Source: Bacteroidales bacterium (GTDB lineage Bacteria > Bacteroidota > Bacteroidia > Bacteroidales > Muribaculaceae). Taken from it: DNA of 45,986 bases. The stretch covers positions 1 to 45,986 of the forward strand of contig JAQXIE010000012.1 in assembly GCA_029007645.1 (NCBI GenBank), written 5' to 3'. The notes beneath the pieces are model-generated. The model had not been told where the DNA came from. It ran no database searches and worked only from the letters and a program-made list of their open reading frames with translations. How positions within the stretch are numbered: position 1 is the stretch's first letter; every line of letters starts with the position of its first letter. Position numbers and translations under genes: made by a program. This document shows, in pieces, positions 15,547 to 45,986 of the stretch.

Positions 15547-15583
15547 ATATTTTAGATGATTGACTGATTGAATATATGTTTGG

Positions 15584-15660
15584 AACGGGCTGGCCTGTGA
15601 AGGCCGGACCGTTCATTTTGAAACAGGCAGACCTGTGAAGGCCTGCCCGTTTTGTTTTTT
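15584..15660 (+). terminator. Two tandem 30-nt hairpins ending in a T-run
   Basis: 15584-15613 and 15622-15651 are diverged copies of one hairpin, each with loop TGTGAA and stem ends AAC/GTT. The second is followed by a T-rich run to 15660 and looks like a normal terminator; the first is a duplicate. Stem changes are partly compensatory (a T-G pair in the first is A-T in the second). Confidence 0.75.
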
Positions 15661-15663
15661 TAT

Positions 15664-15708
15664 ATAAGATTTATAAGATTTATAAGACTTATAAGACTTA
15701 TAAGATTT
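15664..15708. repeat. 9-bp tandem repeat, five copies
   Basis: Five head-to-tail units ATAAGA(T/C)TT at 15664, 15673, 15682, 15691 and 15700. Units 3 and 4 carry C instead of T at position 7. The array lies between converging genes. Its copy number is likely to vary between strains. Confidence 0.9.
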
Positions 15709-15713
15709 AAAAG

Positions 15714-15740
15714 AGCCGGACCGCGATTGGCAGTCCGGCT
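15714..15740 (-). terminator. Terminator of the GYF/TM2 gene
   Basis: AGCCGGAC and GTCCGGCT form an 8-bp stem with an 11-nt loop; on the minus strand it is followed by CTTTTAAA. It lies 26 nt after the stop of the gene at 15766. Confidence 0.7.
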
Positions 15741-25736: not shown

Positions 25737-25786
25737 GCCGCCCATCCATTCCGCCGCCAGCGCCGCCCATCCATCCAGCCGCCAGC
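25737..25786 (+). repeat. 25-bp tandem duplication before the cloverleaf element
   Basis: Two head-to-tail units (25737-25761, 25762-25786), each beginning GCCGCCCATCCAT and ending GCCGCCAGC, with small differences in the middle. They abut the 67-bp cloverleaf repeat at 25787, whose first bases (GCCGCC) continue the pattern. Confidence 0.8.
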
Positions 25787-25853
25787 GCCGCCTCTTTACA
25801 GAGGCTCCACTCGACAGCCCTGCCGTTGCGTGGAGCCCGCTTCAGCGGGCGGC
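25787..25853 (+). repeat. 67-bp cloverleaf REP-like element, copy 1
   Basis: The sequence folds as a four-way junction: outer stem GCCG/CGGC, arm 1 CCTCT-TTAC-AGAGG, arm 2 CTCCAC...GTGGAG with a structured tip, arm 3 CCCGC-TTCA-GCGGG. It lies 146 nt upstream of the transposase gene. Two more copies lie at 27406 and 27478. Confidence 0.85.
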
Positions 25854-25960
25854 TCGAGGTCGGCGTGCTTGCGGCTCGAGGCTGGCGTGCTTGCGGCTCG
25901 AGGCCGGCGTGCTTGCGGCTCAGGATCGGCGTGCGGGCGGCTCAGGATCGGCGTGCGGGC
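25851..25960 (+). repeat. 22-bp tandem repeat, five copies
   Basis: Units start at 25851, 25873, 25895, 25917 and 25939. The first three read GGCTCGAGG.. followed by GGCGTGCTTGC; the last two read GGCTCAGGATCGGCGTGCGG and end GC. The array starts inside the last bases of cloverleaf copy 1 and ends 39 nt before the transposase start. Confidence 0.85.
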
Positions 25961-25999
25961 GGCAATCAGTTAGTTTGAATTCACCTTAAAGTTATTTCC

Positions 26000-27007
26000 A
26001 TGAGCTCACAGTCCCTGTCCTCTCCTTACTCTCAGCGCAAGCATCCCGACATGCTGGCCCGGGCGCTTTGGCATGATTATCGGTCGCGGTGCATTTACAT
26101 GGTGACACTCTCGCTGGCGCCGGAGGTGCCGCGACTTTCACGCATAGAGGGCGCGCTGACTCCAGCCGGTGTCCGCGCCGAGACCATCCTGTCCGAAACC
26201 GGCATCATTGTCGACCGGGAGCTCGACTGCATCGAAACCCACTATCCCGCCGTGTGGATCATGGCAAAGGCCATAATGCCTGACCATGTCCATTTCGTCA
26301 TTTTCGTCAAGGAGCGCATGGAGAAGCACCTCGGCAGTGTCGTGGCCTCAATCAAGGCCAACTGCCTGAAGCGCTTCAGGAGCGAATTTCCTGACAGCGC
26401 GCTTGCCCTATCGGGACATGGCTTGTTCGCCCGGGGCTTCAATGACAAAATCGTCTTCAGGAAGGGGCAGAAGGACAACTTCATCAATTATGTCAACCGG
26501 AATCCGGTCAGATATTACATCATGACGCACCATCAGGGATTTTTCCGGCATTGTCAGGATTTGGAAATCGAGGGCATTAGTTATGAGGCATATGGAAACT
26601 ACACCCTATTGCGGCATCCGGTAATGGAGCCTGTTGTGGTAAGCAGCCGATATAAGCCCGAAGAGCTCGAGGCATGGTACAATCGGTGGGATGAAGCCAT
26701 CCGGCAGCGGGGAGTGCTGATAGGCGCATTTATCAGCGACAGTGAGAAGGAAGTGCGCGACCGGGCTATCGAATGCGGAGCGAAAGTGATACAGATTCAA
26801 TGGTATGGATTTGAAGACCGGCAGAAGCCGTCGGGCCGCTTTTTTGATCTTTGCGGCGACGGGCGCCTGCTGATCATCGCCGTTCATCCGTACACCACAC
26901 GGCAGGCGCAAATCCGACGCGACCAGTGCCTGGCCATGAACAAGCTCGCCTCTATGATCTGCGCAGCGGATTTCCGCGCCAAGCTCCTGCACGCCCTGAA
27001 TTGCTGA
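26000..27007 (+). CDS. REP-associated tyrosine transposase-like protein with extra C-terminal domain
   Basis: 335 residues. The N-terminal half is a Y1/HUH (IS200-like, RAYT) transposase: MPDHVHFVIFV supplies the HxH metal ligands (H96, H98) and INYVNRNPVR the likely catalytic tyrosine (Y164). From about residue 211 an additional domain follows: PVVVSSRYKPEE, GVLIGAFISDSEKEVRDRAI, VIQIQWYGFEDR, KPSGRFFDLCGDGRLLIIA and RRDQCLAMNKLA. Its alternating strand/helix pattern resembles a Rossmann-like DprA/SLOG fold. Repeats on both sides suggest it acts on the local cloverleaf elements. Its 3' end overlaps the convergent acyltransferase gene by 56 nt. Confidence 0.82.
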   Translation: MSSQSLSSPYSQRKHPDMLARALWHDYRSRCIYMVTLSLAPEVPRLSRIEGALTPAGVRAETILSETGIIVDRELDCIETHYPAVWIMAKAIMPDHVHFVIFVKERMEKHLGSVVASIKANCLKRFRSEFPDSALALSGHGLFARGFNDKIVFRKGQKDNFINYVNRNPVRYYIMTHHQGFFRHCQDLEIEGISYEAYGNYTLLRHPVMEPVVVSSRYKPEELEAWYNRWDEAIRQRGVLIGAFISDSEKEVRDRAIECGAKVIQIQWYGFEDRQKPSGRFFDLCGDGRLLIIAVHPYTTRQAQIRRDQCLAMNKLASMICAADFRAKLLHALNC

Positions 27008-28079
27008 TGGCCTGGAGGCGGCTGAGGAGTGGTTGCACCAGCAGCTTGAAGAGGATGCTGGTCAGAATAATCAGACCGATGTAAGCGGGGATAAGCTTTA
27101 GTTGATCATGGGTGCGCATCTTGCTGAGAATCAGAAGGCAGAGGCCGTGCATCATGTAAAAGTCCATGGACCTGCGGCCCATGTAGGTCAGCCCGGCGGC
27201 GAGGCGCGCCGGCAGGCCGGCCATTGCCAGGCGGGGCAGCAGCAGCCACAAGGGGATACTGCTCATCACCATCAGGAGGAAATTCAGGAAATAGGGCAGA
27301 TCGGGAATTTTCCTGTCGCCGATATAAAGATAGATAATGAACGTGCCGGCAAAGAGCAAGAATGCACCAGCCGGAAGCACAGCCCGCCTCAGCGGGCGGC
27401 AATTCGCCGCCTCTTTACAGAGGCTGCACTCAACAGGCTCGCCGTTGCGAGGAGCCCGTTTCAGCTGGCTGCAATCCGCCGCCTCTTTACAGAGGCTCCA
27501 CTCAACAGGCTTGCCGTTGCGTGGAGCCCGCCTCAGCGGGCGGCTTGTGCCGGCGGCCAGAATGCCCAGCGGGAAGCCGATCCAGGACACCGAGGCCGGA
27601 TTGCCGCTGGCCAGGCTGTAGAGACTCCCGGCAATGACCGTGGCCGGAAGCACCATCTTAAGCCCCCGGTTGATTGAGGCGAAATAGGCCACATAGAGCA
27701 CGATGAGCGCCTGCAGAAACCAGCAGTGCTTGTTGATCAGTGTCAATCCCAGCAAGTCGGTGAGCGCATGCCAGGGCGTCGGGTTGTATTTGCGGAAATT
27801 CGCCCAGTAGATCATGTAAATGGCATTCGCAATTATAAACGGCAGGATTACTTTGACCAGCCTCATTGCTGAGGATCGAACGCCATGCTTCTTATTGCCC
27901 GCCGTCAGTCCATAGCCGGAGCAGAAGAAGAAGGCACAGCAGATCGCCGGGCCTATCCCCTTGAAAACCTCCAGACCTTGCCAGGCATAACCCATGCCGG
28001 AGTAGTGGTGCACCATCAGCAGCAGGATGGCCACACCGCGAATCAGCTGCGATTCCTGAATGCTTAGCTTTATGGGCAT
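26952..28079 (-). CDS. Acyltransferase family 3 membrane protein with repeat insertion
   Basis: 375 residues, multi-pass, of the OafA/acyltransferase-3 type: RGVAILLLMVHHYSG (catalytic-type HH near residues 24-25), FFFCSGYGL, WFLQALIVLYV and C-terminal helices. Such proteins O-acylate surface glycans. Residues ~179-233 (TSRPLRRAPRNG to NCRPLRRAV) are foreign: they are translated from two and a bit cloverleaf repeats and consist of two 24-residue units. Removing them joins GILAAG to VLPAGAF, a plausible native sequence. The C-terminal tail (ISNSGRAGAWRGNPLRRS) is antisense to the transposase gene. Enzyme may or may not be functional. Confidence 0.8.
   Translation of the reverse strand: MPIKLSIQESQLIRGVAILLLMVHHYSGMGYAWQGLEVFKGIGPAICCAFFFCSGYGLTAGNKKHGVRSSAMRLVKVILPFIIANAIYMIYWANFRKYNPTPWHALTDLLGLTLINKHCWFLQALIVLYVAYFASINRGLKMVLPATVIAGSLYSLASGNPASVSWIGFPLGILAAGTSRPLRRAPRNGKPVEWSLCKEAADCSQLKRAPRNGEPVECSLCKEAANCRPLRRAVLPAGAFLLFAGTFIIYLYIGDRKIPDLPYFLNFLLMVMSSIPLWLLLPRLAMAGLPARLAAGLTYMGRRSMDFYMMHGLCLLILSKMRTHDQLKLIPAYIGLIILTSILFKLLVQPLLSRLQAISNSGRAGAWRGNPLRRS
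27382..27400 (+). repeat. Cloverleaf element 3' fragment
   Basis: Only arm 3 and the outer 3' strand remain (GCCCGCCTCAGCGGGCGGC). It lies 5 nt before full copy 2, inside the acyltransferase gene. Confidence 0.8.
27406..27472 (+). repeat. 67-bp cloverleaf REP-like element, copy 2
   Basis: Same length and plan as copy 1. Arm 2 has G for C (GGCTGCAC) matched by a change on the other side (GCGAGGAG), and arm 3 reads CCCGT-TTCA-GCTGG, so this copy is partly degenerate. It lies inside the acyltransferase CDS and stays open in that frame. Confidence 0.8.
27478..27544 (+). repeat. 67-bp cloverleaf REP-like element, copy 3
   Basis: Near-perfect copy with all four stems intact: arm 2 continues as CAAC.GGC-TT-GCC.GTTG above CTCCAC/GTGGAG. 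Offset from copy 2 is 72 nt (24 codons), so the tandem pair encodes a repeated 24-residue peptide in the acyltransferase. Confidence 0.85.
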
Positions 28080-41788: not shown

Positions 41789-42376
41789 ATGAAAACCGAT
41801 ATAGTACTGGCCGGTGTCGGAGGCCAGGGCATTCTGACGATTGCCACAATTCTGGGCGCGGCGGCGCTCGCCGACAACCTCTACATCAAGCAGGCCGAAG
41901 TGCACGGCATGAGCCAGCGCGGCGGCGACGTGCAGTCAAACCTCCGTATCGGCTCCGAGCCGATACATTCCGATCTGATCCCCCTCGGTGGCGCCGATCT
42001 GATCGTATCGCTCGAACCCATGGAAGCCCTGCGTTATCTTCCTTTCCTCAGCAAGAATGGATGGGTGGTCAGCTCCACGCTGCCCTTCGTCAATATCGAC
42101 AACTATCCCGAGCAGGAGAAACTCGAGGGTGAACTTCTCGCCCTGGGCAATGTGGTGGCCTTCGACATGGAGGCCGCGGCCAAGGAGGTGGCTTCGGCCC
42201 GCAGCTCCAATCTGGTGCTGTTGGGCGCCGCGAGTCCCTTTATCGACATCCCCGCCGAGGCCATCGAAAAAGCCATCGCCTCTGTGTTCGGCTCCAAAGG
42301 TGAAGCGATAGTCAACGCCAACATCGCCGCCTTCCGCCTGGGCCGCACCCGCGCTGTCGAAATGGCCAAAATCTAA
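41789..42376 (+). CDS. iorB: Indolepyruvate:ferredoxin oxidoreductase, beta subunit
   Basis: 195 residues of the pyruvate/2-oxoacid oxidoreductase gamma-type fold: DIVLAGVGGQGILTIATILG, QAEVHGMSQRGGDVQSNLRIG and DLIVSLEPMEALRYL. The GVGGQG and HGMSQRGG motifs bind CoA/ThDP at the subunit interface. Complete. A large palindromic element begins about 22 nt after its stop. Confidence 0.94.
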   Translation: MKTDIVLAGVGGQGILTIATILGAAALADNLYIKQAEVHGMSQRGGDVQSNLRIGSEPIHSDLIPLGGADLIVSLEPMEALRYLPFLSKNGWVVSSTLPFVNIDNYPEQEKLEGELLALGNVVAFDMEAAAKEVASARSSNLVLLGAASPFIDIPAEAIEKAIASVFGSKGEAIVNANIAAFRLGRTRAVEMAKI

Positions 42377-42398
42377 TATTTAGTAATTCAAGATTCGC

Positions 42399-42773
42399 AA
42401 GTTGGTATTATTAGATTTTTATGGCACATGCAGTACAGAAACATGGTCTCCGACCAAGCTGTATCGCTCCGGTCTGTCCCCACGAAGGCCGATGCCAGCT
42501 GACGCTGGCCCGTCCATCGTGGGGTTATCGAGAAACAGCCTCTCCGAGGCAATGAAGCCATCGAGTGGAGTATACGATGCAGGCAATGAAGCCTTATTTT
42601 GGTGTATATGGCGCCGGTAATGAATCAGATACCTCGGAGAGGTTGTTTCTCATTAACCCCACGATGGCTGTAGGATGCGAAGCGTCCTGACAGCCTTTGT
42701 GGGGTGTGTATCCGGCATAGCACACCTTGGTCGGAGACCATGTTGCTCGCCTGATGTATCCTAATACCAACAT
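42399..42773 (+). repeat. Large multi-arm palindromic element, complete copy
   Basis: Fills the 465-nt gap 42377-42841. Ends: GTTGGTATTA (42401-42410) and TAATACCAAC (42762-42771), a perfect 10-bp terminal inverted repeat. Inside: an 18-bp perfect stem (42441-42458 with 42726-42743, CTTGGTCGGAGACCATGT), then three arms: left 42478-42524 (CCCCACGA/TCGTGGGG with an inner GCCAGC/GCTGGC hairpin), centre 42530-42651 (18 bp, long loop) and right 42657-42704. No protein is encoded. It could be a MITE-like mobile element or a structured RNA. Confidence 0.85.
42548..42631 (+). repeat. 34-bp modular repeats in the central loop
   Basis: Units begin at 42548, 42582 and 42616 with GGCAATGAAG, GGCAATGAAG and GGTAATGAAT. 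The first two share an A/T-rich GTATA block about 23 nt in and otherwise differ. The third is truncated where the right stem begins. Confidence 0.75.
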
Positions 42774-42841
42774 GTGAAATTTCAGTTAGTACTAACACTT
42801 AGTAACTCGTACTTATTACCTATCACTTATCACATAGTACC

Positions 42842-44191
42842 ATGTTTCCCATTTCCGACCAACAATTCCAGGAGGCTGTCGACCGACTGTCGATACTCGA
42901 CGTTGCCGACGCCACTATCCGTCAGATTTGCGCCCTTGCCGCCGAACTGGAATCGATCAGCGGCGAGCCGATGGTGCATCTTGAAATAGGCAATCCAGGT
43001 CTCGCTGCCGAGCACATCGGAGTCGAGGCTGAAATTAAAGCGCTACGCAACGGCATAGCCAACCAATACCCTCCCATCCAAGGCATTCCGCCTCTCAAGA
43101 AAGCGGGACACGACTTCCTTAAACGCTTCCTCGACATCGATGTGCCGGAATACGGCATCGTTCCCACCGTCGGCTCCATGCAGGGCTCCTTAACGCTCCA
43201 GATCATCATGGGCCAGCGCCTCAAGGACCAGGGCAAGGACGCCATGCTGTTCCTCATGCCGGGCTTCGCGCCGAACCGCCAGCAGTCGAAGGTGCTGGGA
43301 CTGAAGCACGAGAAATTCGACATCTACAAGTACCGTGGCAAAGCGCTTGAGGCCAAGCTGGAAAGCTATCTCGCCAAGGGAAACATAAGCGCCATAATGT
43401 ATAGCAACCCCAACAACCCCGCATGGACCAACCTCACCGAGGAGGAGCTGGAGATAATAGGACGTCTCGCCACGAAATACGACGCCATCGTGATGGAGGA
43501 CATAGCCTACTTCGGCATGGACTTCCGCGAGAACGTCCAGGCGCCGGGCGCCATCGGGCACACCGTGGCTCGATATACGGACAATTATGTGTTGCTTCTT
43601 TCCGGCTCGAAGATTTTCAGCTACGCCGGACAGCGCATCGCCCTCGTGTGCATGAGCGAGGCTGTCTATCAGCGCCGCTACAGGTATCTGGAGGAATTCT
43701 ACGAGATGCCCCGTTTCGGCGACGCCTACATCTACGGCATCCTCTACGTGGCATCGTCCGGCACGGCTCATTCCGCACAGCACGCCATGGCCGACATGCT
43801 TGAGGCTGCCGTGAACGGAAAGCTCCCTTTCGTGGAGAACTGCAGCGAGTACGGTCGCCGCGCCGGCATAGTCAAACAGCTCTTTGCAGACAATGGTTTC
43901 CATATCGTCTACGACATGGACGGCGACCAGCCCATAGCCGACGGTTTCTTCTTCACCATCGGATATGACGGCATGACCGGCGCCGAACTGCAGCGCGAGC
44001 TGCTGAAACACGGTGTATCGGCCATCACCCTCGCCAGCACCGGAAGCGACCAGCAGGGCGTGCGCGTCACCGTGTCGATGGTAAAGTCCGACGAGGATTT
44101 CAAACGCCTGGAGCGTTTCCTCCGACAGTTCAATAACACACATGGCAAACATTCCAAAACCGTCCGCAATGAACCGTGTGAAGTTTGTTAG
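42842..44191 (+). CDS. Class I/II PLP aminotransferase
   Basis: 449 residues of fold type I. Key regions: VHLEIGNPGLAAEHI, GIVPTVGSMQGSL, MYSNPNNPAWTNLTEEEL (substrate carboxylate site), VMEDIAYFGMDF (PLP-binding Asp), and the PLP lysine in LLSGSKIFSYAGQRIALV. The substrate is not evident; the neighbours make an aromatic or branched amino acid likely. The last ~20 residues (THGKHSKTVRNEPCEVC) overlap the next gene and look like an added tail. No promoter consensus seen between the palindromic element and the ATG. Confidence 0.88.
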   Translation: MFPISDQQFQEAVDRLSILDVADATIRQICALAAELESISGEPMVHLEIGNPGLAAEHIGVEAEIKALRNGIANQYPPIQGIPPLKKAGHDFLKRFLDIDVPEYGIVPTVGSMQGSLTLQIIMGQRLKDQGKDAMLFLMPGFAPNRQQSKVLGLKHEKFDIYKYRGKALEAKLESYLAKGNISAIMYSNPNNPAWTNLTEEELEIIGRLATKYDAIVMEDIAYFGMDFRENVQAPGAIGHTVARYTDNYVLLLSGSKIFSYAGQRIALVCMSEAVYQRRYRYLEEFYEMPRFGDAYIYGILYVASSGTAHSAQHAMADMLEAAVNGKLPFVENCSEYGRRAGIVKQLFADNGFHIVYDMDGDQPIADGFFFTIGYDGMTGAELQRELLKHGVSAITLASTGSDQQGVRVTVSMVKSDEDFKRLERFLRQFNNTHGKHSKTVRNEPCEVC

Positions 44192-45485
44192 CCCCGACGA
44201 GGCCGTGAGGCTCATCGAGAGTGGCGACCATGTCTACTTGCAGGGTTCCACGTCGATACCCGAGGTTTTGGTCGAGGCTCTCGCGGCCCGCGGCCATGAG
44301 CTGCGTGACGTGACGGTCTATTCCGGTTTTGCCGTCGCCCGACGTCCGTCACCCTTGTGCCGCCCGGAGTTCAGGGACTCGTTTCTGATAGATTCCTTCT
44401 TCGTGTCCAACGCGTTCCGCAAATGGATCGCCGACGGCTACGGCACGATGACGCCGCGGTTTCTCGGCGAGGTGCCCGAGCTGTTCCGCGACGGCACCTG
44501 CCGCGTGGATGTGGCGCTGATCAACTGCTCGCTGCCCGATGCAGAGGGCTATGTCAGCTTCGGCGTATCGGCCGACCTGGCCACCGCCGCCGTGGAATGC
44601 GCCGACAGGGTGATCGCCCAGATTAATCCGCATGTGCCCTTCACGCCCGGTGATGCCGTGATTCATCTCAGCCGGCTCGCCGCCGCCGTGTCGGTCGACG
44701 AACCGCTGGTCGAGGTGCCCACTGCGGCGCCTACCGATGCCGAAATCAAAATAGGCAATTTTATCGCCGAGCAGATCCCCGACGGCGCAACGCTGCAGAT
44801 CGGCGTCGGCGGAATCCCCAATGCCGTGATCCGCGCCCTGCAGGGTCACCGTCATCTCGGCCTCCATACCGAGGCCATGACCGACGGAGTGCTCCCTCTG
44901 CTCGAAAGCGGTGTCATCGACAACAGCCTCAAGACCGTAATGCCGGGCAAATCCGTGGCGTCGCTCGCCCTCGGATCCCGTGCCCTATACGACTTCCTCG
45001 ACCATAACGACGATGTGATCTTCAAGGATGTGGCCTGGACAAACAACCCCTATACCATCGCGCAGAATCCCAAGGTGATGTCGATCAACTCATGTCTGGA
45101 AATCGACCTCACGGGCCAGGTGTGCGCCGACTCCATCGGCAGGACAATTTACTCCGGGGTGGGAGGGCAGCATGACTTCGTCTACGGTTCGTCGCGCAGC
45201 GAAGGGGGCAAATCCTTCCTGGCGATGCTCTCCACCACTTCCAGGGGCGTCAATAAGATCAAGCCTGTCCTGACCGAAGGTGCCGGAGTGGTCACAACCC
45301 GTTTCCAGACCAACTATGTGGTGACCGAGAACGGTATCGTCAACCTCCGGGGCAAGAACCTGGCGGAACGCGCCCGGCTGATGATCTCGCTGGCCGCGCC
45401 GCAATTCCGCGAGGAACTCGAACGGGAGGCATTCCAGCGTTTCGGCCACGCCTACGGCCGGCTGATGCACGGCTCTTTCATTTAA
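44142..45485 (+). CDS. Acetyl-CoA hydrolase / CoA-transferase family protein
   Basis: 447 residues from 44142; an internal ATG at 44169 (MNRVKFVSPDEAVRLIESGDHV) may be the real start and would reduce the overlap with the aminotransferase from 50 to 23 nt. Family marks: GIGGIPNAV-type loop (IGVGGIPNAVIRAL), the catalytic glutamate in LGLHTEAMTDG, GVGGQHDFVYGSSRSEGGKS and VVTENGIVNLRGK. This group includes acetate, butyrate and 4-hydroxybutyrate CoA-transferases. Likely moves CoA between an acyl-CoA product and acetate. Confidence 0.88.
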   Translation: MANIPKPSAMNRVKFVSPDEAVRLIESGDHVYLQGSTSIPEVLVEALAARGHELRDVTVYSGFAVARRPSPLCRPEFRDSFLIDSFFVSNAFRKWIADGYGTMTPRFLGEVPELFRDGTCRVDVALINCSLPDAEGYVSFGVSADLATAAVECADRVIAQINPHVPFTPGDAVIHLSRLAAAVSVDEPLVEVPTAAPTDAEIKIGNFIAEQIPDGATLQIGVGGIPNAVIRALQGHRHLGLHTEAMTDGVLPLLESGVIDNSLKTVMPGKSVASLALGSRALYDFLDHNDDVIFKDVAWTNNPYTIAQNPKVMSINSCLEIDLTGQVCADSIGRTIYSGVGGQHDFVYGSSRSEGGKSFLAMLSTTSRGVNKIKPVLTEGAGVVTTRFQTNYVVTENGIVNLRGKNLAERARLMISLAAPQFREELEREAFQRFGHAYGRLMHGSFI

Positions 45486-45498
45486 CACTAAATAAGAC

Positions 45499-45592
45499 AT
45501 CAAGGCACGGAACTTGACGGCAAAAGCTGAATATTTTGGAAACATAAAGATATCAAGGCACGGAACTGGCGGCAAAAGCGGAGCTTTTAGCC
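45499..45592 (+). repeat. Direct repeat pair and hairpin after the CoA-transferase
   Basis: ATCAAGGCACGGAACTtGaCGGCAAAAGC-like units occur at 45499-45527 and 45552-45579, 53 nt apart, with a 1-nt deletion and a substitution. The second runs into GGC.AAAAGC-GGA-GCTTTT.GCC (45571-45592), a hairpin that may terminate the CoA-transferase transcript. From 45593 to 45733 I see no gene or motif. Confidence 0.7.
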
Positions 45593-45733
45593 TGCACTGA
45601 ACTTACAGATTTACACAGAATTAGCTATTTAGTAAGCTTGTGCGATATTTTGCCGTTGCCACAGACCTGCTGACGCAGGAAACGGAATGAACCCAGAAGA
45701 CCTGCGTGATGATTCTTGTTACTCAAGTTTAGC

Positions 45734-45986
45734 AAGTTGGTATCATTAATTTTAGTGGCACATGCTGGCAATCACGTCTTCGATGCGAGTTTATATCGCT
45801 GGCAATAGAGTCTTCGCTGTGAGTTTATATCGCTGGCAATGAAGTGGATACCTCGGAGAGGTTGTTTCTCATTAACCCCACGATGGCTGAAGGAAGCGAA
45901 GCGTACTGACAGCCTTCGTGGGGTGTATCTCCGGCATAGCACAGATTGGTCGGAGACCATGTTGCTCGCCTTAATGATCCCAATGT
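45734..45986 (+). repeat. Large palindromic element, second copy, left half missing, cut by window end
   Basis: Fills the end of the window. It begins CAAGTTGGTAT and TGGCACATGC like the copy at 42399, then goes straight into 34-bp units (45767, 45801, 45835). After that it follows the right half of the first copy closely: CCTCGGAGAGG (45851-45861), right arm 45876-45923, and outer arm TTGGTCGGAGACCATGT (45946-45962). The left arm and the left strands of the central and outer stems are absent. Confidence 0.85.

Follow-up and report, generated by a model that had tools for sequence, protein, structure and literature searches.

Y1 transposases and their palindromic partners

Insertion sequences of the IS200/IS605 family, among them IS608 and ISDra2, encode a Y1 transposase of the HUH fold and have hairpin ends, with neither terminal inverted repeats (TIRs) nor target duplications. 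The guide sequence in this family is the tetranucleotide located 5' of the palindrome, and GTAG has been proposed to serve as the same in REPs (PMC8266576). REPIN and REP-RAYT systems consist of dispersed palindromic units, often arranged as inverted doublets and mostly intergenic, a cognate Y1 gene flanked by the same units, and a tag, GTAG or CGTC, at the foot of the hairpin (PMC3116915); the transposase, TnpA_REP, belongs to class 2 and has the Y---NP motif.

The survey of Quentin et al. (2018; PMC6006769) recognizes, in addition, subclass 1.2, which comprises Y1 transposases of Bacteroidetes and Cyanobacteria that are about 148 aa long and carry the signature Y---Q--HH. In the survey's account these enzymes lack the IS properties of subclass 1.1, and its Table 1 has "no" under REP for them; the REP search was automatic, with RNAMotif, where canonical REPs were given a GT[AG]G foot, and was supplemented by manual inspection. 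With neither REP partners nor the properties of subclass-1.1 ISs, the role of subclass 1.2 was left open by that description. The same survey places 20 of the 26 TIRtrons/TIRYT in subclass 2.1. In the open-licence literature, as far as its accessible text goes, we found no paper tying subclass 1.2 to dispersed palindromes.

Structure of the element

The sequence studied here (the window, i.e., the whole stretch of 45,986 nucleotides that was analysed) is a contig of a Muribaculaceae genome from the order Bacteroidales. Its main features are the following:

41789-42376, neighbouring gene iorB (Pfam POR)
42380..42387, + strand, left putative target duplication TTAGTAAT, matching the right one in 7 of 8 positions with a 1-nt end shift
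~42388..42785, no strand assigned, whole TIR-bounded element between iorB and the aminotransferase gene, delimited by comparison of TIRs in four copies
42387..42410, + strand, left TIR, consensus CTCAAGTTTCGCAAGTTGGTATTA
42441..42550, - strand, L arm, the closest match to the arm upstream of tnpA in a genome of the same genus (G083)
42444-42456, 42478-42524 and 42538-42550, the three hairpins of the L arm
42523..42528, - strand, ATAACC tag at the distal foot of the central hairpin of the L arm
42547..42614, + strand, pair of direct repeats of 34 bp each, 74% identical, located between the arms
42631..42743, + strand, R arm, the closest match to the arm downstream of tnpA in G083
42631-42643, 42657-42704 and 42728-42740, the three hairpins of the R arm
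42653..42658, + strand, TTAACC tag at the distal foot of the central hairpin of the R arm
42762..42785, - strand, right TIR
42786..42793, + strand, right putative target duplication TTAGTACT
42842-44191, neighbouring aminotransferase gene
45722..45986, + strand, second copy in the window, truncated by the contig end
45722-45745, ~45767-45845 and 45846-45968, TIR, 34-mers and R arm of the second copy

The two arms, of about 115 nt each, are inverted copies of one another, and each of their four small hairpins has a GGA loop on the tag-bearing strand. The initial annotation had described a non-coding block at 42399-42773; the block is real, and no ORF of at least 150 aa overlaps it, but its boundaries had to be moved to about 42388-42785. 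The 10-bp inverted ends proposed there do exist, at 42401-42410 and 42762-42771, but the true TIR, judged from four copies, is 24 bp long. The perfect 18-bp stem (42441-42458 with 42726-42743) is confirmed, and folding recovered the compound hairpins in both arms. The giant fold predicted at the same time is far beyond chance: its energy is -195.6 kcal/mol, compared to a mean of -117.1 in 100 shuffled sequences (z -13.5).

The gap between iorB and the aminotransferase gene is 465 nt in the window versus -2 to 125 nt at 29 loci of the same genus (ends extrapolated from tblastn in these relatives), so that the element was likely inserted in the lineage of the window.

Copies in the genome of origin and in other genomes

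In its own genome (2.01 Mb in 112 contigs, 90% complete), BLASTN with the element gave 59 matches, cross-matches between arms on opposite strands included, at about 20 places. What had looked like an oddity of two copies is thus a multicopy family, and the first of the findings named initially as refuting the idea, that only these two exist anywhere, is not borne out. Four copies, i.e., the one in the window, C35, C23 and the internally deleted C97, have the layout TIR-L-centre-R-TIR. Seven others (C83, C100, C72, C29, C9, C55 and C47) have the layout R-spacer-L, some of them with an outside TIR, and many copies are single arms; partial copies are common. No ORF of at least 150 aa is overlapped at 17 of the 18 places examined. 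The second copy in the window had been taken for a copy of the same plan. It is truncated where the contig stops, and the succession of TIR, 34-mers and R arm in it agrees with the R-then-L layout, so the plan is apparently not shared.

The window contains other repeats as well. Two near-identical 21-bp repeats (AAGACATCAAGGCACGGAACT) with a CCTGCTGACGCAGG hairpin lie at 45494-45567 and 45660-45690; relatives of this hairpin adjoin other copies of the element (C29, C72 and C9) and probably represent another interspersed repeat family. At 15579-15714, two copies of a hairpin repeat are separated by 38 bp, and a 9-bp tandem array (TATAAGATT) comes after them. At 25786-27545 there is a separate RAYT-like gene (~26000-27007; Y1_Tnp at 25.8 bits with the cut-off of 23, and Y---NP by eye), with flanking hairpin repeats of its own, GCCTCT-TTAC-AGAGGC and GCCCGC-TTCA-GCGGGC, likely a second REPtron in the window. 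Three more open Y1_Tnp genes were seen in the same genome (L031, L033 and L034, in contigs C53, C55 and C94); the hairpin repeat family at their flanks differs from gene to gene, and some copies of the element adjoin such repeats.

DNA matches to the element were found in three of 111 genomes of the genus, its own included (G000, G083 and G125). As at most six candidates were scored per genome in the search of the 110 same-genus genomes, the copy numbers in G083 and G125 are lower bounds. The first 60 relatives searched gave no match, the plasmid and phage collections searched did not contain the element, and viral contigs had no exact match to its pattern. G125 has arms at six places at least and no match to a subclass-1.2 tnpA at E<=1e-12; here, the arms may have outlasted the gene.

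Terminal inverted repeats and target duplications

The last 23 bases of the left TIR, with up to three mismatches allowed, have eight matches in the genome of origin, compared to none for the reversed control. All eight belong to known copies, so that no autonomous element with these TIRs was detected in this 90%-complete genome at this level of similarity. Apparent 8-bp target duplications occur at exactly the predicted positions in C97 (8 of 8 positions, null value 0.0004) and C23 (7 of 8, null value 0.0013), and, with a shift of 1 nt, in the window copy (C12; 7 of 8); C35, the remaining copy of the four with TIRs, has none. TIR-like ends also lie beside two doublets and the parent gene of G083 and beside one copy in G125, compared to none in one mononucleotide shuffle. 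The 24-bp TIRs and the apparent 8-bp duplications suggest that a transposase of the DDE type has, on one occasion or more, also mobilized the L-centre-R form.

A parent gene and its remnants

A 155-aa IS200-like transposase gene, intact and located between two arms, is present in G083 (G083:C57; positions 1501-1968 of locus L128). The L-type arm upstream of it is 85% identical to the L arm of the window over 95% of the arm, and the R-type arm downstream is 77% identical to the R arm. In the genome of the window, the corresponding gene survives in C47 as a fragment between two inverted arms, which codes for a sequence 86% identical to the G083:C57 protein; the arm downstream of this fragment is closer to the inverted L arm (86%) than to the R arm (80%). 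This fragment is the only subclass-1.2 tnpA that we found in this 90%-complete assembly, and the family is, therefore, probably dormant there.

Among 13 R-spacer-L units without an intact gene, found in three genomes, the spacer retains a tnpA remnant in three, namely C47 (258 nt), G083:C40 (66 nt) and G083:C17 (18 nt); no match to tnpA was detected in the other 10. C95 has 51 nt of tnpA (71% identical) between the TIR and the L arm, and the window copy, whose L-centre-R order is unlike the R-L order at the gene, has no remnant at all. We read this graded series (258, 66, 51, 18 and 0 nt) as probable traces of internal deletion of a tnpA element.

The transposase matches Pfam Y1_Tnp (8.4e-18). 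The Y, Q, H and H of the Y---Q--HH motif are invariant in nine and in 24 aligned proteins, in place of the class-2 Y---NP, and the length is close to the published 148 aa; by this signature, the enzyme is assigned to TnpA_Y1 subclass 1.2. A single-sequence search of PDB with the transposase gave no match, and a profile search retrieved eight sequences, chains of ISHp608 and ISDra2 among them. The AlphaFold2 model (pLDDT 90.7) is best matched by transposase-hairpin complexes of ISDra2 and IS608 (TM ~0.54-0.61 by query length), and the RAYT-REP hairpin complex ranks 30.

Inverted arms at other subclass-1.2 loci

Matches to A1 at E<=1e-12 were found at 43 places in 29 of the 111 genomes of the genus, and 29 of these places (L116-L144) were used to compare the flanks of the gene. 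Inverted repeats between the two flanks score above the 95th percentile of 300 mismatched flank pairs at 23 of the 29, and at 22 of the 25 loci where the motif is intact. Wider sets included 80 named GTDB loci and 30 fetched order-level loci (152 of 295 genomes at the order level had matches); motif-bearing genes exceed the control at 24 of 31 testable loci in the former and 22 of 29 in the latter, and Y---Q genes without HH do so in two of 45 cases. Removal of four proteins identical to kept ones leaves 83 loci, of which two have a flank shorter than 60 nt; at 64 of the remaining 81, inverted arms score more than 15. In the same scan, the Y---Q genes without HH, a mostly cyanobacterial control, exceed 15 in one of 45 cases and 13 in two. 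The aminotransferase genes of the genus, a separate control, exceed 15 in none of 28 and 13 in one. The maximum for mismatched pairs is 34 in the genus set and 118 in the named GTDB and order-level set, which holds several loci from one genome, a possible cause of the latter value. The p-values are optimistic, since the loci share ancestry. At 17 of the 81 loci, all three of Chryseobacterium/Weeksellaceae among them (L200, L204 and L209), the flank test did not detect arms.

The trait "no REP-like structures" ascribed to subclass 1.2 thus does not describe most of these loci. Since the majority of the relatives tested have inverted, hairpin-rich flanks, we regard flanks of this type as the likely single-stranded DNA substrate of these transposases. 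Additional arm copies were likewise found for other subclass-1.2 genes, with 10 matches in G018, 12 in G062 and eight in the one-contig genome G305, where some of them are distant from its five tnpA matches. In G018, near a contig end (G018:C65:16-302; L166, L168 and L169), three arm copies stand in direct tandem at ~88-nt spacing, and head-to-tail amplification of arms may also occur.

Triloops, foot tags and compensatory changes

In the folded arms of 15 relatives, a larger central hairpin is mostly accompanied by small ones, and the stems are unrelated in sequence; for several of the 15, the piece that was folded covers only part of the arm plan. Hairpins with a 3-nt loop number 1.75 per 200 nt in subclass-1.2 arms and 0.27 in shuffled arms, compared to 0.29 and 0.23, respectively, for the Y---Q control and 0.21 for the aminotransferase control, where the loops include no GNA and two TNC. 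Read toward the gene, 178 of the 275 loops in the subclass-1.2 arms are GNA and 31 are TNC; GNA outnumbers TNC at 59 loci, TNC outnumbers GNA at two, and 22 are tied. The GNA class was named only after all loops had been counted, and the motif ideas were drawn from the genus loci; the strict held-out set consists of L195-L304 minus L275, which had been seen before, and L214, which is close to L128. In this set, 124 of 202 loops are GNA and 19 are TNC, with GNA prevailing at 42 loci, TNC at none, and 14 tied. GNA triloops reportedly form extraordinarily stable DNA mini-hairpins, and the arms, therefore, look suited to folding as single-stranded DNA.

A usable central hairpin is present in 69 of 157 arms, and fewer than half of these 69 have TAACC. 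The tag is at the distal foot in 32 of the 69 and at the proximal foot in three; the respective numbers are 22 and one of 47 in L195-L304, and 20 and one of 45 in the strict held-out arms. Arms shorter than 90 nt or containing N were dropped here, as were, from the arm copies, those with less than 90% coverage, cut at an end or identical in sequence.

An alignment of 45 arms contains true two-sided changes. At the pair 110-122, 27 arms have G-C and 18 have A-T, and pairing is broken in none; at the pair 60-83, 27 have C-G, 16 have T-A and two have something else. The pair 58-85 has two such changes, and most other pairs are nearly invariant. The G-U/G-C difference that had been cited earlier as a hint of a maintained fold is a single substitution in the window copy; this pair is G-C in 44 of the 45 rows, and the R arm of the window is the sole exception.

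Origin of the element and alternative explanations

The arms of the element match the inverted, hairpin-rich ends that flank an IS200-like gene in G083, and we consider it probable that the element is a representative of this transposon family that lacks the gene. Its spread likely took place in the form of single-stranded DNA that the transposase recognised in trans. With somewhat more reserve, we favour a broader proposal: that TAACC-tagged triple-hairpin arms with GNA triloops form a third superfamily of transposase-linked palindromes in bacteria, independent of the GTAG and CGTC REPs and widespread in Bacteroidota, and are the cognate single-stranded substrate of subclass 1.2. As far as the compared sequences go, we take this for a system of the REPIN/RAYT kind that has a different tag. 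In such a system, TnpA would bind the hairpins on the strand read toward the gene, and TAAC would be the guide at the hairpin foot, as proposed for GTAG in REPs; cutting and joining would copy or move the R-spacer-L doublet, and TnpA would act in trans on gene-less copies. The window copy is a rearranged L-centre-R form. The family with its copies, parent gene and tnpA remnants, the arms at the gene flanks and the strand-specific loops and tag are observations; that TnpA recognizes and moves these units, that TAACC guides it and that a DDE enzyme acted on the TIR-bounded form is what we infer. Of the possibilities raised initially, the non-autonomous transposon and the substrate of a single-strand transposase both gain from the G083 parent, the series of tnpA deletions, the TIRs and the apparent 8-bp duplications, with use by the transposase predicted rather than observed.

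A Y1 transposase would not be expected to leave TIRs or 8-bp duplications, which counts against our reading. They would fit a plain MITE, i.e., a TIR element moved by a DDE transposase alone with hairpin arms as passive cargo, and the element is indeed short, gene-less and multicopy, with 24-bp TIRs, apparent duplications in C97, C23 and the window copy though not in C35, and TIR-like ends beside some copies in G083 and one in G125. Yet there are 13 R-spacer-L units without an intact gene against four of the L-centre-R type, most R-L units are without a clear TIR pair, and the genome of origin yielded no autonomous partner with these TIRs at up to three mismatches; passive cargo also leaves unexplained the strand bias of GNA and TAACC, and the arms go with subclass-1.2 genes across unrelated sequences. 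We regard the plain MITE as unlikely. It is less likely still that the arms are just the left and right subterminal hairpins of an ordinary IS200/IS605 element, with nothing REP-like about them: Pfam Y1_Tnp, the IS608/ISDra2 fold and the closeness of arms to the gene would agree with this, but the two arms are inverted relative to each other and their strand signals converge on the middle, gene-less doublets and dispersed copies occur in other genomes, and arms are wanting in Y---Q genes without HH (the 1/45 and 2/45 above, mostly cyanobacterial).

A large structured RNA was also suggested at the start, and we considered it together with a transcribed regulator between iorB and the aminotransferase gene. 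The fold is very stable, and there are a few two-sided changes; however, positions 42200-45986 have no Rfam match at E<=1, a comparable insert between these genes is absent in 29 of 29 relatives, parts of the element are dispersed over ~20 places with many partial copies, and loops and tags lie on opposite strands in the two arms. We rejected this candidate as very improbable.

Comparison with known systems

BrickBuilt, a MITE of Porphyromonas gingivalis with 19 copies (PMC4596501), resembles the element in belonging to Bacteroidales and in having TIRs, internal tandem repeats and intergenic location. Its TIR is GAGACCTTTGCA, IS5-like, its internal repeats are 23 bp long, and its description, where available to us, mentions no cognate Y1 transposase; the sequence differs, and, with the TIR and 34-bp repeats of the window unlike the BrickBuilt TIR and repeats, membership in that family was rejected.

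TIRtrons/TIRYT (Di Nocera et al. 2013, PMC3733652) are alike in that a Y1 transposase is flanked by long inverted repeats, some of them self-complementary, and in that the repeat families form dimers or clusters in some species. Their repeats, however, share the motif GGGGWSAS, and the plan with TAACC and GNA loops is not part of their description as far as we could consult it.

The IS200/IS605 family shares the Y1 HUH transposase fold and hairpin ends, and the G083 parent has such a transposase, while the window copy is without the gene. The present family differs in its inverted ends, its gene-less doublets and, in one of its forms, enclosing TIRs accompanied by apparent 8-bp duplications. 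The enzyme agrees with the published subclass 1.2 in size, signature and occurrence in Bacteroidetes; contrary to the statement there that REPs are absent and typical terminal IS200 structures generally so (PMC6006769), inverted hairpin-rich arms are found at most genes tested.

REPIN / REP-RAYT systems come closest. Here, too, hairpins are dispersed, mostly intergenic and often paired as inverted doublets, the Y1 gene is flanked by the same hairpins (intact in G083, a remnant in the genome of origin), there is a tag at the foot, and copies remain where no intact transposase gene was found. But the unit is a triple hairpin of ~115 nt with GNA triloops instead of one palindrome of 20-40 bp, the tag is TAACC instead of GTAG or CGTC, and the transposase is of class 1 (Y---Q--HH) instead of class 2. 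If our interpretation is correct, subclass 1.2 gains a testable substrate, with predictions for both the guide sequence (TAACC) and the strand; part of the hairpin repeats found between genes in Bacteroidales could have a common origin; and the REP-RAYT idea would extend from class 2 to class 1 enzymes.
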